NCBI RefSeq assembly: GCF_033597815.2
Contig: NZ_CP166245.1
Span: 1,860,001 to 1,924,000 of the forward strand
Direction: 5' to 3'
From: Staphylococcus sp. KG4-3
Lineage (GTDB): Bacteria > Bacillota > Bacilli > Staphylococcales > Staphylococcaceae
DNA length: 64,000 bases
In this document: positions 2,041 through 9,557 of the stretch, piece after piece
Numbering within the stretch: the stretch's first letter is position 1
Layout of the letters: each line of letters begins with the position of its first letter
The notes under the pieces: model-generated
What the model was told of the DNA's origin: nothing
Seen by the model: only the letters and a program-made list of their open reading frames with translations
Database searches by the model: none
Made by a program: the position numbers and the translations under genes

Positions 2041-2068
2041 ATAAAAAAAACTTCCCATAAGGAAGAAT
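2041..2068 (-). terminator. Terminator of the rRNA/tRNA operon
   Basis: Just past the last tRNA-Gly gene the minus strand reads CTTCC-TTAT-GGGAAG followed by eight T. This is where the long 16S-23S-5S-tRNA transcript should end. Confidence 0.85.
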
Positions 2069-2071
2069 AAA

Positions 2072-2146
2072 TGGAGCGGAAGATAGGACTTACACCTATA
2101 TCTCATTCCAGGAAGGAATGTGTTCTGAGAGTTGAACTACTCCCGC
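2072..2146 (-). tRNA. Non-proteinogenic tRNA-Gly(UCC), copy 1 (type A)
   Basis: The minus strand folds as a tRNA: acceptor GCGGGAG against CTTCCGC, encoded TCCA end, D-stem GTTC/GAAC, anticodon stem CATTC/GAATG with loop CTTCCTG (anticodon TCC). The D-loop AACTCTCA lacks the GG pair, and the T-loop is TGTAAGT in place of TTCRANY. Loss of both elbow signatures is the known mark of staphylococcal tRNA-Gly that feeds FemX/A/B pentaglycine bridge synthesis and is poorly bound by EF-Tu. Confidence 0.9.
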
Positions 2147-2161
2147 TTAATTATTAAATTA

Positions 2162-2236
2162 TGGAGCGGAGGATAGGACTTACACCTACACCACGTTCCG
2201 GGAAGGAACGTATTCTGAAAGTTGAAATACCCCCGC
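2162..2236 (-). tRNA. Non-proteinogenic tRNA-Gly(UCC), copy 2 (type B)
   Basis: Acceptor GCGGGGG pairs with CCTCCGC and the TCCA end is encoded. The anticodon stem is CGTTC/GAACG with loop CTTCCCG (TCC). The D-loop is AACTTTCA without GG and the T-loop is again TGTAAGT. It differs from copy 4 at a few places, including the acceptor and T-stem. It begins exactly 90 bases after copy 1. Confidence 0.9.
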
Positions 2237-2251
2237 TTAATTACTAAATTA

Positions 2252-2326
2252 TGGAGCGGAAGATAGGACTTACACCTATACCTCATTCCGGGAAGGAATG
2301 TGTTCTGAGAGTTGAACTACTCCCGC
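2252..2326 (-). tRNA. Non-proteinogenic tRNA-Gly(UCC), copy 3 (type A)
   Basis: Nearly identical to copy 1: anticodon stem CATTC/GAATG, D-loop AACTCTCA, T-loop TGTAAGT. It differs in the anticodon loop (CTTCCCG) and one base in the variable region. Spacing to its neighbours is again 90 bases. Confidence 0.9.
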
Positions 2327-2341
2327 TTAATTATTAAATTA

Positions 2342-2416
2342 TGGAGCGGAAGATAGGACTTACACCTATACCACGTTCCGGGAAGGAACGTATTCTGAAA
2401 GTTGAAATACTCCCGC
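2342..2416 (-). tRNA. Non-proteinogenic tRNA-Gly(UCC), copy 4 (type B)
   Basis: First of the four to be transcribed. Acceptor GCGGGAG/CTTCCGC, anticodon stem CGTTC/GAACG, loop CTTCCCG (TCC), D-loop AACTTTCA without GG, T-loop TGTAAGT. This is the type closest to the non-proteinogenic tRNA-Gly I remember from S. aureus. Confidence 0.9.
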
Positions 2417-2426
2417 ATTTTGATGA

Positions 2427-2497
<71 letters not shown>

Positions 2498-2506
2498 AAT
2501 AAAAAA

Positions 2507-2578
2507 CTGGGCTAGCTGGATTCGAACCAGCGCGTGATGGAGTCAAAGTCCATTGCCTTACCGCTTGGCTATAGCCCA
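2507..2578 (-). tRNA. tRNA-Gln(UUG)
   Basis: Acceptor TGGGCTA/TAGCCCA with discriminator G, anticodon loop CTTTGAC giving TTG. In this genus it is first charged with glutamate and then amidated by GatCAB, which is encoded at 45157-48358. CCA is not encoded. Confidence 0.95.
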
Positions 2579-2589
2579 TTAATATAGAG

Positions 2590-2663
2590 GGCGGATGATG
2601 GGAATCGAACCCACGAGTGTCGGAACCACAATCCGATGCGTTAACCACTTCGCCACAACCGCC
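2590..2663 (-). tRNA. tRNA-His(GUG)
   Basis: Has the extra 5' G (G-1) opposite C73 that marks tRNA-His. Anticodon loop TTGTGGT gives GTG. The acceptor GCGGTTG faces CATCCGC, which leaves a T5-T68 mismatch. Its 5' end is only one base from the CCA end of tRNA-Trp. CCA is not encoded. Confidence 0.94.
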
Positions 2664-2664
2664 A

Positions 2665-2738
2665 TGGCAGGGGCAGTAGGAATCGAACCCACATCAAAGG
2701 TTTTGGAGACCTCTATTCTACCGTTGAAATATGCCCCT
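2665..2738 (-). tRNA. tRNA-Trp(CCA)
   Basis: Acceptor AGGGGCA/TGCCCCT, discriminator G, anticodon loop CTCCAAA giving CCA, encoded CCA end. Confidence 0.95.
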
Positions 2739-2755
2739 ATTAAATTAAAAATAAA

Positions 2756-2839
2756 TGGTGGAGGGGGGCAGATTCGAACTGCCGAACCCGAAGGAGCGGA
2801 TTTACAGTCCGCCGCGTTTAGCCACTTCGCTACCCCTCC
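2756..2839 (-). tRNA. tRNA-Tyr(GUA)
   Basis: Class II tRNA with acceptor GGAGGGG/CCCCTCC, discriminator A, anticodon loop CTGTAAA giving GTA, long variable arm and encoded CCA end. Confidence 0.95.
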
Positions 2840-2845
2840 TAAGAA

Positions 2846-2921
<76 letters not shown>

Positions 2922-2931
2922 TTGCATAAAA

Positions 2932-3004
2932 TGGTTCAGGACAGAATCGAACTGCCGACACATGGAGCTTCAATCCATTGCTCTACCAACTGAGCTACTG
3001 AACC
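2932..3004 (-). tRNA. tRNA-Phe(GAA)
   Basis: Acceptor GGTTCAG/CTGAACC, discriminator A, anticodon loop TTGAAGC giving GAA. CCA is not encoded. Confidence 0.95.
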
Positions 3005-3014
3005 ATAATTAAAA

Positions 3015-3090
3015 TGGCGGTCCCGATGGGATTCGAACCCACGATCTCCTGCGTGACAGGCAGGCGTGTTAACCGCTACACTACGGGACC
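3015..3090 (-). tRNA. tRNA-Asp(GUC)
   Basis: Acceptor GGTCCCG/CGGGACC, discriminator G, anticodon loop CTGTCAC giving GTC, encoded CCA. Confidence 0.95.
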
Positions 3091-3098
3091 TTTAAAAA

Positions 3099-3172
<74 letters not shown>

Positions 3173-3185
3173 ATAATAATATTAA

Positions 3186-3278
3186 TGGCGGAGGAAGAGG
3201 GATTCGAACCCCCGCGAGCCGTTAAGCTCCTGTCGGTTTTCAAGACCGATCCCTTCAGCCGGACTTGGGTATTCCTCC
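3186..3278 (-). tRNA. tRNA-Ser(UGA), copy 1
   Basis: Class II tRNA with acceptor GGAGGAA/TTCCTCC, anticodon loop CTTGAAA giving TGA, encoded CCA. The variable-arm stem is GAGC/GCTC; the neighbouring copy has GGGC/GCCC. Confidence 0.95.
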
Positions 3279-3322
3279 ACAAATATTAGCTAAAATTAAA
3301 TTATATTCAATTATGATAAAAA

Positions 3323-3415
3323 TGGCGGAGGAAGAGGGATTCGAACCCCCGCGGGCCGTTAAGCCCCTGTCGGTTTTCAAGACCGATCCCTTCAGCCGGA
3401 CTTGGGTATTCCTCC
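3323..3415 (-). tRNA. tRNA-Ser(UGA), copy 2
   Basis: Same 93-base gene as the copy at 3186-3278 apart from a paired change in the variable arm (GGGC/GCCC). Anticodon TGA, CCA encoded. The two copies are 44 bases apart. Confidence 0.95.
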
Positions 3416-3424
3416 AAAATTATA

Positions 3425-3498
3425 TGGACCTTGCAGGATTCGAACCTGCGACCGAACGGTTATGAGCCGTTAGCTCTGACCAACTGAGCTAAAGGTCC
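3425..3498 (-). tRNA. tRNA-Ile2(CAU, lysidine type)
   Basis: Anticodon loop CTCATAA gives CAT, but the body (acceptor GGACCTT/AAGGTCC) matches the Bacillus-type minor isoleucine tRNA and not the elongator Met tRNA. C34 would be converted to lysidine by TilS so that it reads AUA. CCA is not encoded. The Ile2 reading rests on similarity to remembered Firmicute sequences. Confidence 0.82.
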
Positions 3499-3525
3499 TA
3501 AATATAATTTACAACTAATAATTAG

Positions 3526-3599
3526 TGGCGGTGGAGGGGATCGAACCCCCGACCTCACGGGTATGAACCGTGCGCTCTAGCCAGCTGAGCTACACCGCC
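3526..3599 (-). tRNA. Elongator tRNA-Met(CAU)
   Basis: Acceptor GGCGGTG/CACCGCC, discriminator A, anticodon loop TTCATAC giving CAT. The body matches Firmicute elongator Met tRNA. CCA is not encoded. Confidence 0.9.
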
Positions 3600-3626
3600 G
3601 TTGTATTTATGTTGTATTATTAAATA

Positions 3627-3702
3627 TGGTGGAGACTAGCGGGATCGAACCGCTGACCTCCTGCGTGCAAAGCAGGCGCTCTCCCATCTGAGCTAAGCCC
3701 CC
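3627..3702 (-). tRNA. tRNA-Ala(UGC)
   Basis: Acceptor GGGGGCT/AGTCTCC with the G3-U70 pair that AlaRS requires, anticodon loop TTTGCAC giving TGC, encoded CCA. The 16S-23S spacer copy at 7729-7804 has the same sequence. Confidence 0.95.
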
Positions 3703-3720
3703 ATATATATTTTAGGTTTA

Positions 3721-3794
3721 TCGGGAAGACAGGATTCGAACCTGCGACCCCTTGGTCCCAAACCAAGTGCTCTACCAAGCTGAGCTACTTCCCG
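3721..3794 (-). tRNA. tRNA-Pro(UGG)
   Basis: Acceptor CGGGAAG/CTTCCCG, discriminator A, anticodon loop TTTGGGA giving TGG. CCA is not encoded. Confidence 0.95.
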
Positions 3795-3802
3795 TAAATT
3801 AA

Positions 3803-3876
3803 TGCGCCCAATAGGGGTCGAACCTATAACCTCTTGATTCGTAGTCAAGTACTCTATCCAGTTGAGCTATGGGCGC
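3803..3876 (-). tRNA. tRNA-Arg(ACG)
   Basis: Acceptor GCGCCCA/TGGGCGC, discriminator A, anticodon loop CTACGAA giving ACG; A34 would be deaminated to inosine by TadA. CCA is not encoded. Confidence 0.95.
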
Positions 3877-3893
3877 ATAATTTTATAGGATTA

Positions 3894-3979
3894 TGCCGAG
3901 GACCGGAATCGAACCGGTACGGTGATCTCTCACCGCAGGATTTTAAGTCCTGTGCGTCTGCCAGTTCCGCCACCCCGGC
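3894..3979 (-). tRNA. tRNA-Leu(UAA)
   Basis: Class II tRNA with acceptor GCCGGGG/CCTCGGC, anticodon loop CTTAAAA giving TAA, long variable arm. CCA is not encoded. Confidence 0.95.
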
Positions 3980-3987
3980 AAAAATAA

Positions 3988-4062
3988 TGGAGCAGAAGAC
4001 GGGATTCGAACCCGCGACCCCGACCTTGGCAAGGTCGTATTCTACCGCTGAACTACTTCTGC
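3988..4062 (-). tRNA. tRNA-Gly(GCC), proteinogenic
   Basis: Acceptor GCAGAAG/CTTCTGC, discriminator T, encoded CCA, anticodon loop TTGCCAA giving GCC. D-loop (AGCGGT) and T-loop (TTCGAAT) are normal, in contrast with the four tRNA-Gly(UCC) genes at 2072-2416. Confidence 0.95.
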
Positions 4063-4065
4063 ATA

Positions 4066-4147
4066 TGCGGGTGAAGGGAGTCGAACCCCCACGCCGTAAG
4101 GCGCTAGATCCTAAGTCTAGTGCGTCTGCCAATTCCGCCACACCCGC
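4066..4147 (-). tRNA. tRNA-Leu(UAG)
   Basis: Class II tRNA with acceptor GCGGGTG/CACCCGC, anticodon loop CTTAGGA giving TAG, long variable arm. CCA is not encoded. Confidence 0.95.
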
Positions 4148-4160
4148 GATATTAAAATAA

Positions 4161-4236
4161 TGGTGAGCCATAGTGGGCTCGAACCACTGACCCTCTGATT
4201 AAAAGTCAGATGCTCTACCAACTGAGCTAATGGCTC
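4161..4236 (-). tRNA. tRNA-Lys(UUU)
   Basis: Acceptor GAGCCAT/ATGGCTC, anticodon loop CTTTTAA giving TTT, encoded CCA. Confidence 0.95.
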
Positions 4237-4243
4237 TTTAAAA

Positions 4244-4319
<76 letters not shown>

Positions 4320-4335
4320 TATTAAAAGTAATAAA

Positions 4336-4411
4336 TGGTGGAGGATGACGGGTTCGAACCGCCGACCCTCTGCTTGTAAGGCAGATGCTCTCCCAGCTGA
4401 GCTAATCCTCC
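4336..4411 (-). tRNA. tRNA-Val(UAC)
   Basis: Acceptor GGAGGAT, anticodon loop CTTACAA giving TAC, encoded CCA. It is the first tRNA downstream of 5S rRNA in the operon. Confidence 0.95.
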
Positions 4412-4420
4412 ATATAAGTT

Positions 4421-4535
4421 GCCTGGCAACGTCCTACTCTTGCGGAACGTAAGTCCGACTACCATCGGCGCTAAAGAGCTTAACTTCTGTGTTCGGCATG
4501 GGAACAGGTGTGACCTCTTTGCCATTGTCACCAGA
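4421..4535 (-). rRNA. rrf: 5S ribosomal RNA
   Basis: Typical Firmicute 5S sequence on the minus strand, starting TCTGGTGACAATGGC and ending GTTGCCAGGC, with paired ends and the conserved CCGAACACAGAAG loop. About 115 bases. Confidence 0.95.
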
Positions 4536-4614
4536 CAATGAAATGTATGAAATTATACATTCAAAACTAGATAGTAAGTAAAATATGATTTAACCAAAAC
4601 AAAACAATTTAAAA

Positions 4615-7538
<2,924 letters not shown>

Positions 7539-7728
7539 TTTTTTGACTTTCAACACGAACAAGTCGGTTGAAAACCCAAAATGTTATTAATCTGTGAGTG
7601 TTCTTTCGAACACTAGCGATTATTTCTTTTTGAATTCAAAGCTTGTTAAAAAACTCTAATTCACTCGGTTTTGCTTGGTAAAATCATAAATTTTACTTAC
7701 TTATCTAGTTTTCAATGTACAAATTTTA

Positions 7729-7804
7729 TGGTGGAGACTAGCGGGATCGAACCGCTGACCTCCTGCGTGCAAAGCAGGCGCTCTCCCATCTGAGCTAAGC
7801 CCCC
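7729..7804 (-). tRNA. tRNA-Ala(UGC), 16S-23S spacer
   Basis: Same sequence as the tRNA-Ala at 3627-3702, with anticodon TGC, G3-U70 and encoded CCA. It lies just before 23S. Confidence 0.95.
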
Positions 7805-7824
7805 ATAAAAATATTCAAATCTAA

Positions 7825-7901
<77 letters not shown>

Positions 7902-7994
7902 ATTCCGATATGAATACTCTAATGAGCATTCAAAACTGAATACAATATGTCAATGTTATTCCTGTTTCATCTTCGTAAGAAGATGTTTCCGAAT

Positions 7995-9557
<1,563 letters not shown>

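Follow-up and report, generated by a model that had tools for sequence, protein, structure and literature searches.

What do four tandem tRNA-Gly(UCC) genes at the end of an rRNA-tRNA cluster do in a Staphylococcus genome, and do the two types that alternate among them have separate tasks? The genes occupy positions 2072-2416 on the minus strand of the window, the whole 64,000-nucleotide stretch of DNA that was analysed, which comes from a source genome of 3.02 Mb in two contigs. Each gene is 75 nt long and encodes its CCA end, and near-identical spacers of 15 nt separate the copies, giving a period of 90 nt. By analogy with Staphylococcus aureus, the array very probably represents, in the S. 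xylosus clade, the known staphylococcal non-proteinogenic (np) tRNA-Gly, which would donate glycine to the cell-wall bridge. The array ends a 16S-23S-5S-tRNA cluster that lies entirely on one strand:

4421-9557, minus strand: 5S, 23S and 16S rRNA genes with two spacer tRNAs, upstream of the array (Rfam, ARAGORN).
2427-4411, minus strand: 22 more tRNA genes of the cluster, of ordinary type, including tRNA-Gly(GCC) at 3988-4062 (ARAGORN).
2342-2416, minus strand: np tRNA-Gly(UCC) of type B, transcribed first; found by ARAGORN; Rfam tRNA score 38.5 bits; U10/U25 and A26-U44.
2252-2326, minus strand: np tRNA-Gly(UCC) of type A, transcribed second; Rfam tRNA score 46.8 bits; 100% matches in genomes G082, G060, G053 and G009.
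2162-2236, minus strand: np tRNA-Gly(UCC) of type B, transcribed third and thus penultimate; found by ARAGORN; Rfam tRNA score 36.8 bits; G6-C67 and G49-U65.
2072-2146, minus strand: np tRNA-Gly(UCC) of type A, transcribed last, with U37; Rfam tRNA score 47.3 bits; 2 differences from 2252-2326.
2051-2065, minus strand: terminator-like stem-loop of the intrinsic kind, then eight T, after the last np copy (one hit in a terminator scan, where shuffles give 0.5).

Immediately upstream of the array are the genes for tRNA-Cys, tRNA-Gln, tRNA-His and tRNA-Trp, and beyond the terminator-like element is a panD-like gene with an aspartate decarboxylase domain. A similar element, identified by visual inspection, comes after the last np copy in 11 related genomes. 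The rRNA genes, the tRNA genes and the array presumably form one transcript. Another tRNA of the cluster, tRNA-Ser(UGA), also occurs twice in near-tandem (window positions 3186-3278 and 3323-3415). Over 1584 bases, the array region shares 99.7% identity with the S. xylosus NJ record (L135); it matches the S. xylosus CCM 2738 record (L108) in two pieces, at 95.6% and 91.2% identity. A search of plasmids matched 351 records, all from other genera and none spanning 80% of the query.

The sequence-only reading had described four tandem 90-base units with CCA and with alternating types, a description borne out by the coordinates, the spacers, the repeat periods and the differences between copies. 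Tandem Repeats Finder gives a period of 90 nt with 89% matches and a better one of 180 nt with 96% matches. Numbered by coordinate, copies 1 and 3 have 2 mismatches and copies 2 and 4 have 3, whereas unlike pairs have 6-11; thus, the alternation of types is real, and the order along transcription is B-A-B-A. The type A copy at 2252-2326 is identical to copies in records of S. xylosus, S. shinii, S. pseudoxylosus and S. caeli. A check of another assembly for collapse of the array found none: G083, which the genome collection lists as the same species as the source genome, also carries the four copies, and their order is unchanged. Given that agreement and a source genome of only two contigs, an assembly collapse or artefact is ruled out.

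Recognition of these genes as tRNA depends on the search. ARAGORN finds only the two B copies, and a default Rfam run over 12 kb reports the two A copies alone. With a more permissive Rfam search focused on the array, every one of the four is recognised as tRNA at a score over the gathering threshold of 29. The minimum-energy fold of every copy is a cloverleaf, with z of -2.5 to -3.0 and only 1-2 of 200 shuffles folding equally well. For the B copies, the cloverleaf makes up only 0.07 and 0.11 of the predicted ensemble, and the centroid falls short of a full cloverleaf. All four copies carry the UCC anticodon and the glycine identity bases U73 and C2-G71; U73 and G71 are described as glycine identity marks (PMC9976931). 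A whole-genome Rfam search listed no np copy, perhaps because it scored only 150 of 249 candidates, so np copies were located genome-wide by patterns and BLAST.

Several features set the array apart from the other tRNAs of the genome. As the sequence-only reading had noticed, the D-loop GG is absent from all four copies and the T-loop reads TGTAAGT. Positions 18-19 are CU in type A and UU in type B. In addition, position 37 is C or U in all four. The other tRNA genes examined in the genome (an ARAGORN set from the window and from nine stretches covering the genome's other Rfam tRNA matches, with D-loop and T-loop scored by simple motif tests) all show GG in the D-loop, match TTCRANN in the T-loop and have position 37 occupied by a purine (58/58). 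A pyrimidine at position 37 is an extra mark of np tRNAs, one that the sequence-only reading had overlooked. ARAGORN confirms the statement of that reading that the cluster contains no proteinogenic tRNA-Gly(UCC), and a search of the whole genome for a normal gene finds two identical ones outside the cluster, at G000:C1:1819265-1819338 and 1986792-1986865. These proteinogenic genes share the anticodon and the discriminator U73 with the array copies but have the D-loop GG, a TTCGATT T-loop, A37, G49-U65 and G51-C63. Within the array, A49-U65 and A51-U63 occur together in three of the four copies, and copy 2162-2236 has G49-U65 with A51-U63; across the genus, G49 is found in 11 of 232 np copies. 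G49-U65 is counted as a strong EF-Tu pair (PMC4052509). Thus, of the earlier proposal that these are np tRNAs avoiding EF-Tu, the kind stands, by its loops, its T-stem pairs in three of four copies and the presence of Fem enzymes in the genome, but uniform avoidance of EF-Tu is weakened by the G49-U65 copy.

In S. aureus, three of the five tRNA-Gly isoacceptors are described as having UU or CU at 18-19, and in the same three A49-U65 and A51-U63 replace strong EF-Tu pairs (PMC4052509). One np tRNA-Gly of that species is reported to be charged well, to be recognised poorly by EF-Tu and to be involved in the pentaglycine bridge (PMC8007984). Compared with these genes by their published descriptions (Giannouli et al. 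2009, via PMC4052509, PMC9976931 and PMC8007984), the array is alike in its UCC anticodon, its UU/CU at 18-19, its altered T-loop, the A49-U65/A51-U63 combination of three of its four copies, the presence of several copies per genome and the accompanying Fem enzymes. It is unlike them, as described, in having four copies versus the three reported, in the B-A-B-A order, in the A26-U44 pair and predicted longer anticodon stem of its B copies, and in its one G49-U65 copy.

These likenesses suggest how the array might work. It would share the transcript of the rRNA-tRNA cluster and be matured into tRNAs, which glycyl-tRNA synthetase would charge, as the conserved glycine identity bases suggest. 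Having lost the contact between D-loop and T-loop and most of the strong T-stem pairs, the charged np tRNAs would bind EF-Tu poorly, and the pyrimidine at 37 would make them bad at decoding. With poor EF-Tu binding and bad decoding, their glycine would go to FemX, FemA and FemB for the interpeptide bridge, as the S. aureus work leads one to expect. The several copies would serve dosage, and the alternation may have arisen when a pair was duplicated and then have been maintained by exchange between like copies. Against the np reading stand the G49-U65 copy, the predicted fold of the B copies, in which the cloverleaf is not dominant, and a relative, G142 (discussed later), that has Fem enzymes but no np tRNA found.

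The source genome encodes the enzymes in question. Its FemX scores 750 bits to 6snr and its FemA 760 bits to 1lrz, which we take to be the S. aureus FemX and FemA structures. FemB is assigned by its position adjoining femA and after it, and a fourth gene of the FemAB family is also present.

The array is ordinary for the genus. Copy number across staphylococci was checked by BLAST in 84 genomes, the source included, and 79 have the array, with one copy in 5, two in 19, three in 32, four in 22 and five in 1. In the 75 genomes in which the array lies at least 200 nt from either end of the extracted sequence, the corresponding numbers are 4, 19, 29, 22 and 1. Copy counts by HMM and by BLAST agree in 99 of 99 genomes of the wider comparison, and the array lies directly after tRNA-Cys in 96 of these 99, the remaining three ending at a contig edge. 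Judged by titles and abstracts, no genus-wide survey of np tRNA-Gly was recognised in the open-licence literature.

Five genomes of the genus yield zero copies (G079, G023, G031, G049 and G052). The tRNA-Trp of the cluster is also not findable in these five and is found in the control, G032. tRNA-Trp is indispensable; its DNA is thus missing from the five assemblies, the absence of np genes there cannot be judged, and a true loss in these genomes is not accepted. In G031, a contig starts exactly at the tRNA-Leu gene that elsewhere follows the array, which fits a break inside the array. In G052, tRNA-Leu is internal to a contig, where its neighbours are genes other than the tRNA cluster; in G049, the first 3 kb do not contain it. 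These two loci are thus rearranged or incomplete. The best match to the gene adjoining the array reaches 68-86% in G031, G049 and G052 and only 35-40% in G079 and G023. All five assemblies are reported to be 99% complete and G079 is a single contig, yet they seem to lack part of the rRNA-tRNA cluster.

Outside the genus, np tRNA-Gly is present in four other groups of the family at the rank of genus: in 9 of 9 genomes of g2, 8 of 8 of g4, the single genome of g5 and 2 of 6 of g3. Group g4 is Mammaliicoccus for at least three of its eight genomes, and g2, g3 and g5 are presumably Macrococcus-like. The np genes of g2-g5 are like the array in lying directly after tRNA-Cys (20 of 20 genomes), in having the same loops and in having U10/U25, as type B does. 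They are unlike it in numbering one to three copies, in belonging without exception to the U10/U25 class (31 copies) and, in g2, g3 and g5, in having U37. Another family of the order gave weak matches, and the one genome examined there, G110, has only a proteinogenic gene.

The four genomes of g3 in which np tRNA was not found (G142, G143, G144 and G146; L230, L229, L228 and L226) differ from the zero-copy staphylococci, since tRNA-Trp is present in all six g3 genomes. In these four, the tRNA cluster stops after tRNA-Cys at a terminator-like hairpin (shuffles would give about 0.1), with no np gene. Genome-wide BLAST of the four found no np tRNA, G144 giving only two short fragments with E >0.2, and a pattern search of G142 found no np gene, only two proteinogenic ones. 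The two proteinogenic tRNA-Gly(UCC) genes of G142 (G142:C40:86981-87054 and G142:C44:91183-91256) differ from each other, while those of the source genome are identical. A variant of tRNA-Cys is common to the four genomes and is lacking in the two np carriers of g3, which would fit a single loss of np tRNA in the ancestor of the four. In G142, the one genome among the four whose fem genes were examined, the source genome's FemX, FemA, FemB and fourth FemAB-family gene each have an intact orthologue, at 59, 63, 61 and 46% identity, respectively. Fem enzymes thus do not always occur together with np tRNA. For some macrococci, A3alpha Lys-Gly3-Ser or Lys-Gly1-2 bridges have been reported (PMC6008420).

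Taken over 99 genomes, the 263 np copies never have the D-loop GG and always have the discriminator U, and pair 2-71 is C-G in 161 of 161 distinct sequences, the window's included. All 263 copies were retained in these counts, including copy 3 of G025 (L050), in which a one-base deletion in the acceptor arm shifts the parse of the anticodon and T-loop, and copy 3 of G007 (L042), which ends in TCA instead of CCA; both are perhaps decaying, in arrays that are otherwise intact. The idea that the copies of the array are themselves decaying or pseudo tRNA genes draws on such defects among relatives, on the low tRNA scores and on the missing canonical bases of the D-loop and T-loop. It is nevertheless highly improbable: standard pairs are found in 3201 of 3220 stem cells outside 10-25 (161 distinct sequences), with changes on both sides of pairs, and genes of this kind occur in five genera, nearly always at the same place after tRNA-Cys. 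Pairing that is kept while the bases vary is what would be expected of genes under selection. At the excepted pair, U10 occurs in 48 distinct sequences, each time with U25, which could pair with A9 instead in a shifted D-stem. The U10/U25 class accounts for all 31 copies outside the genus versus 36 of 232 inside it, so the B-like D-arm looks ancestral.

In the array, the B copies have lost the 10-25 pair to U10/U25 and have A26-U44, and at minimum energy they are predicted to fold with three pairs in the D-stem and, relative to type A, two extra pairs in the anticodon stem. A26-U44 is found in 8 of the 263 copies: two each in G000 (the source genome) and G083 and one each in G053, G060, G054 and G075. 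The A-U versus G-C difference at 28-42, on which the sequence-only reading had drawn, was dropped as a mark of type because that pair varies throughout the genus; among the distinct np sequences, G-C, A-U, U-A and G-U all occur there. Strict alternation, in which every next-but-one distance is below every adjacent distance, is found in 6 of the 23 arrays of at least four copies (G000, G083, G082, G021, G035 and G050); G025 and G032, whose copies are of unequal length and not fully scorable, are counted as non-alternating among the 23. Eight genomes have a G6-C67 pair, and in every one of the 8 it sits in the penultimate copy, suggesting that copies have held their positions since before those species split. 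Both B copies also share species-specific changes, A26-U44 in the source species and C26 in S. xylosus, suggesting that like copies have exchanged sequence since. Thus, the block duplication of a pair that the sequence-only reading proposed agrees with the spacers and the 180-nt period, but the position of G6-C67 and the shared changes of the B copies imply that local exchange between copies probably acted as well. Together, duplication of a pair and patchy exchange would account for both patterns, neither of which would demand different functions.

Are the two types nonetheless different in use? The sequence-only reading had suggested that they may differ in affinity for the Fem enzymes, and in its full form the idea is that A and B are specialised donors for different Fem steps, distinguished at the junction of the D-arm and anticodon-arm, with alternation holding their ratio at 1:1. 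The lost 10-25 pair and the predicted longer anticodon stem of the B copies would suit this idea, as would the sharing of A26-U44, or of C26 in S. xylosus, by both B copies while A and B stay distinct. However, the rarity of A26-U44 among np copies and of strict alternation among the longer arrays, the near-identical copies of some arrays (e.g., G024 and G078), the uniform U10/U25 class of the four other genera and the presence of FemX, FemA and FemB in G142, with no np tRNA found, all speak against it, and the idea appears quite unlikely. A broader form, in which staphylococci have two np classes, the first retaining its D-stem and the second marked by U10/U25 and, in this array, by a lengthened anticodon stem, that are kept apart by exchange of like with like and are preferred by different Fem steps, is given an equally small chance. 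That A and B serve different Fem enzymes is a possibility that the comparison does not support. The account that we favour, with some reserve, is that the copies are interchangeable, that the alternation is a neutral trace of block duplication and gene conversion, and that copy number matters as dosage only. It is consistent with the range of one to five copies among the 79 genomes, with the near identity of the 15-nt spacers, with the existence of arrays of near-identical copies and with changes that mostly preserve pairs. The persistence of two classes in several arrays, e.g., in five genomes that have a U10/U25 copy between two G10-C25 copies, is less readily explained if the copies are interchangeable.

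The array is of a known kind and is arranged as one would expect in a staphylococcus; the comparative set and the np-less relatives are the useful addition. According to a 2023 review, the determinants for the enzymes that use np tRNA-Gly are still to be discovered (PMC9976931), and the 263 natural copies provide a set for finding what the Fem enzymes recognise. Position 37 provides an additional mark by which np tRNA-Gly may be told. Finally, G142, with its Fem enzymes and no np tRNA found, offers a natural test of whether np tRNA is needed for glycine bridges.
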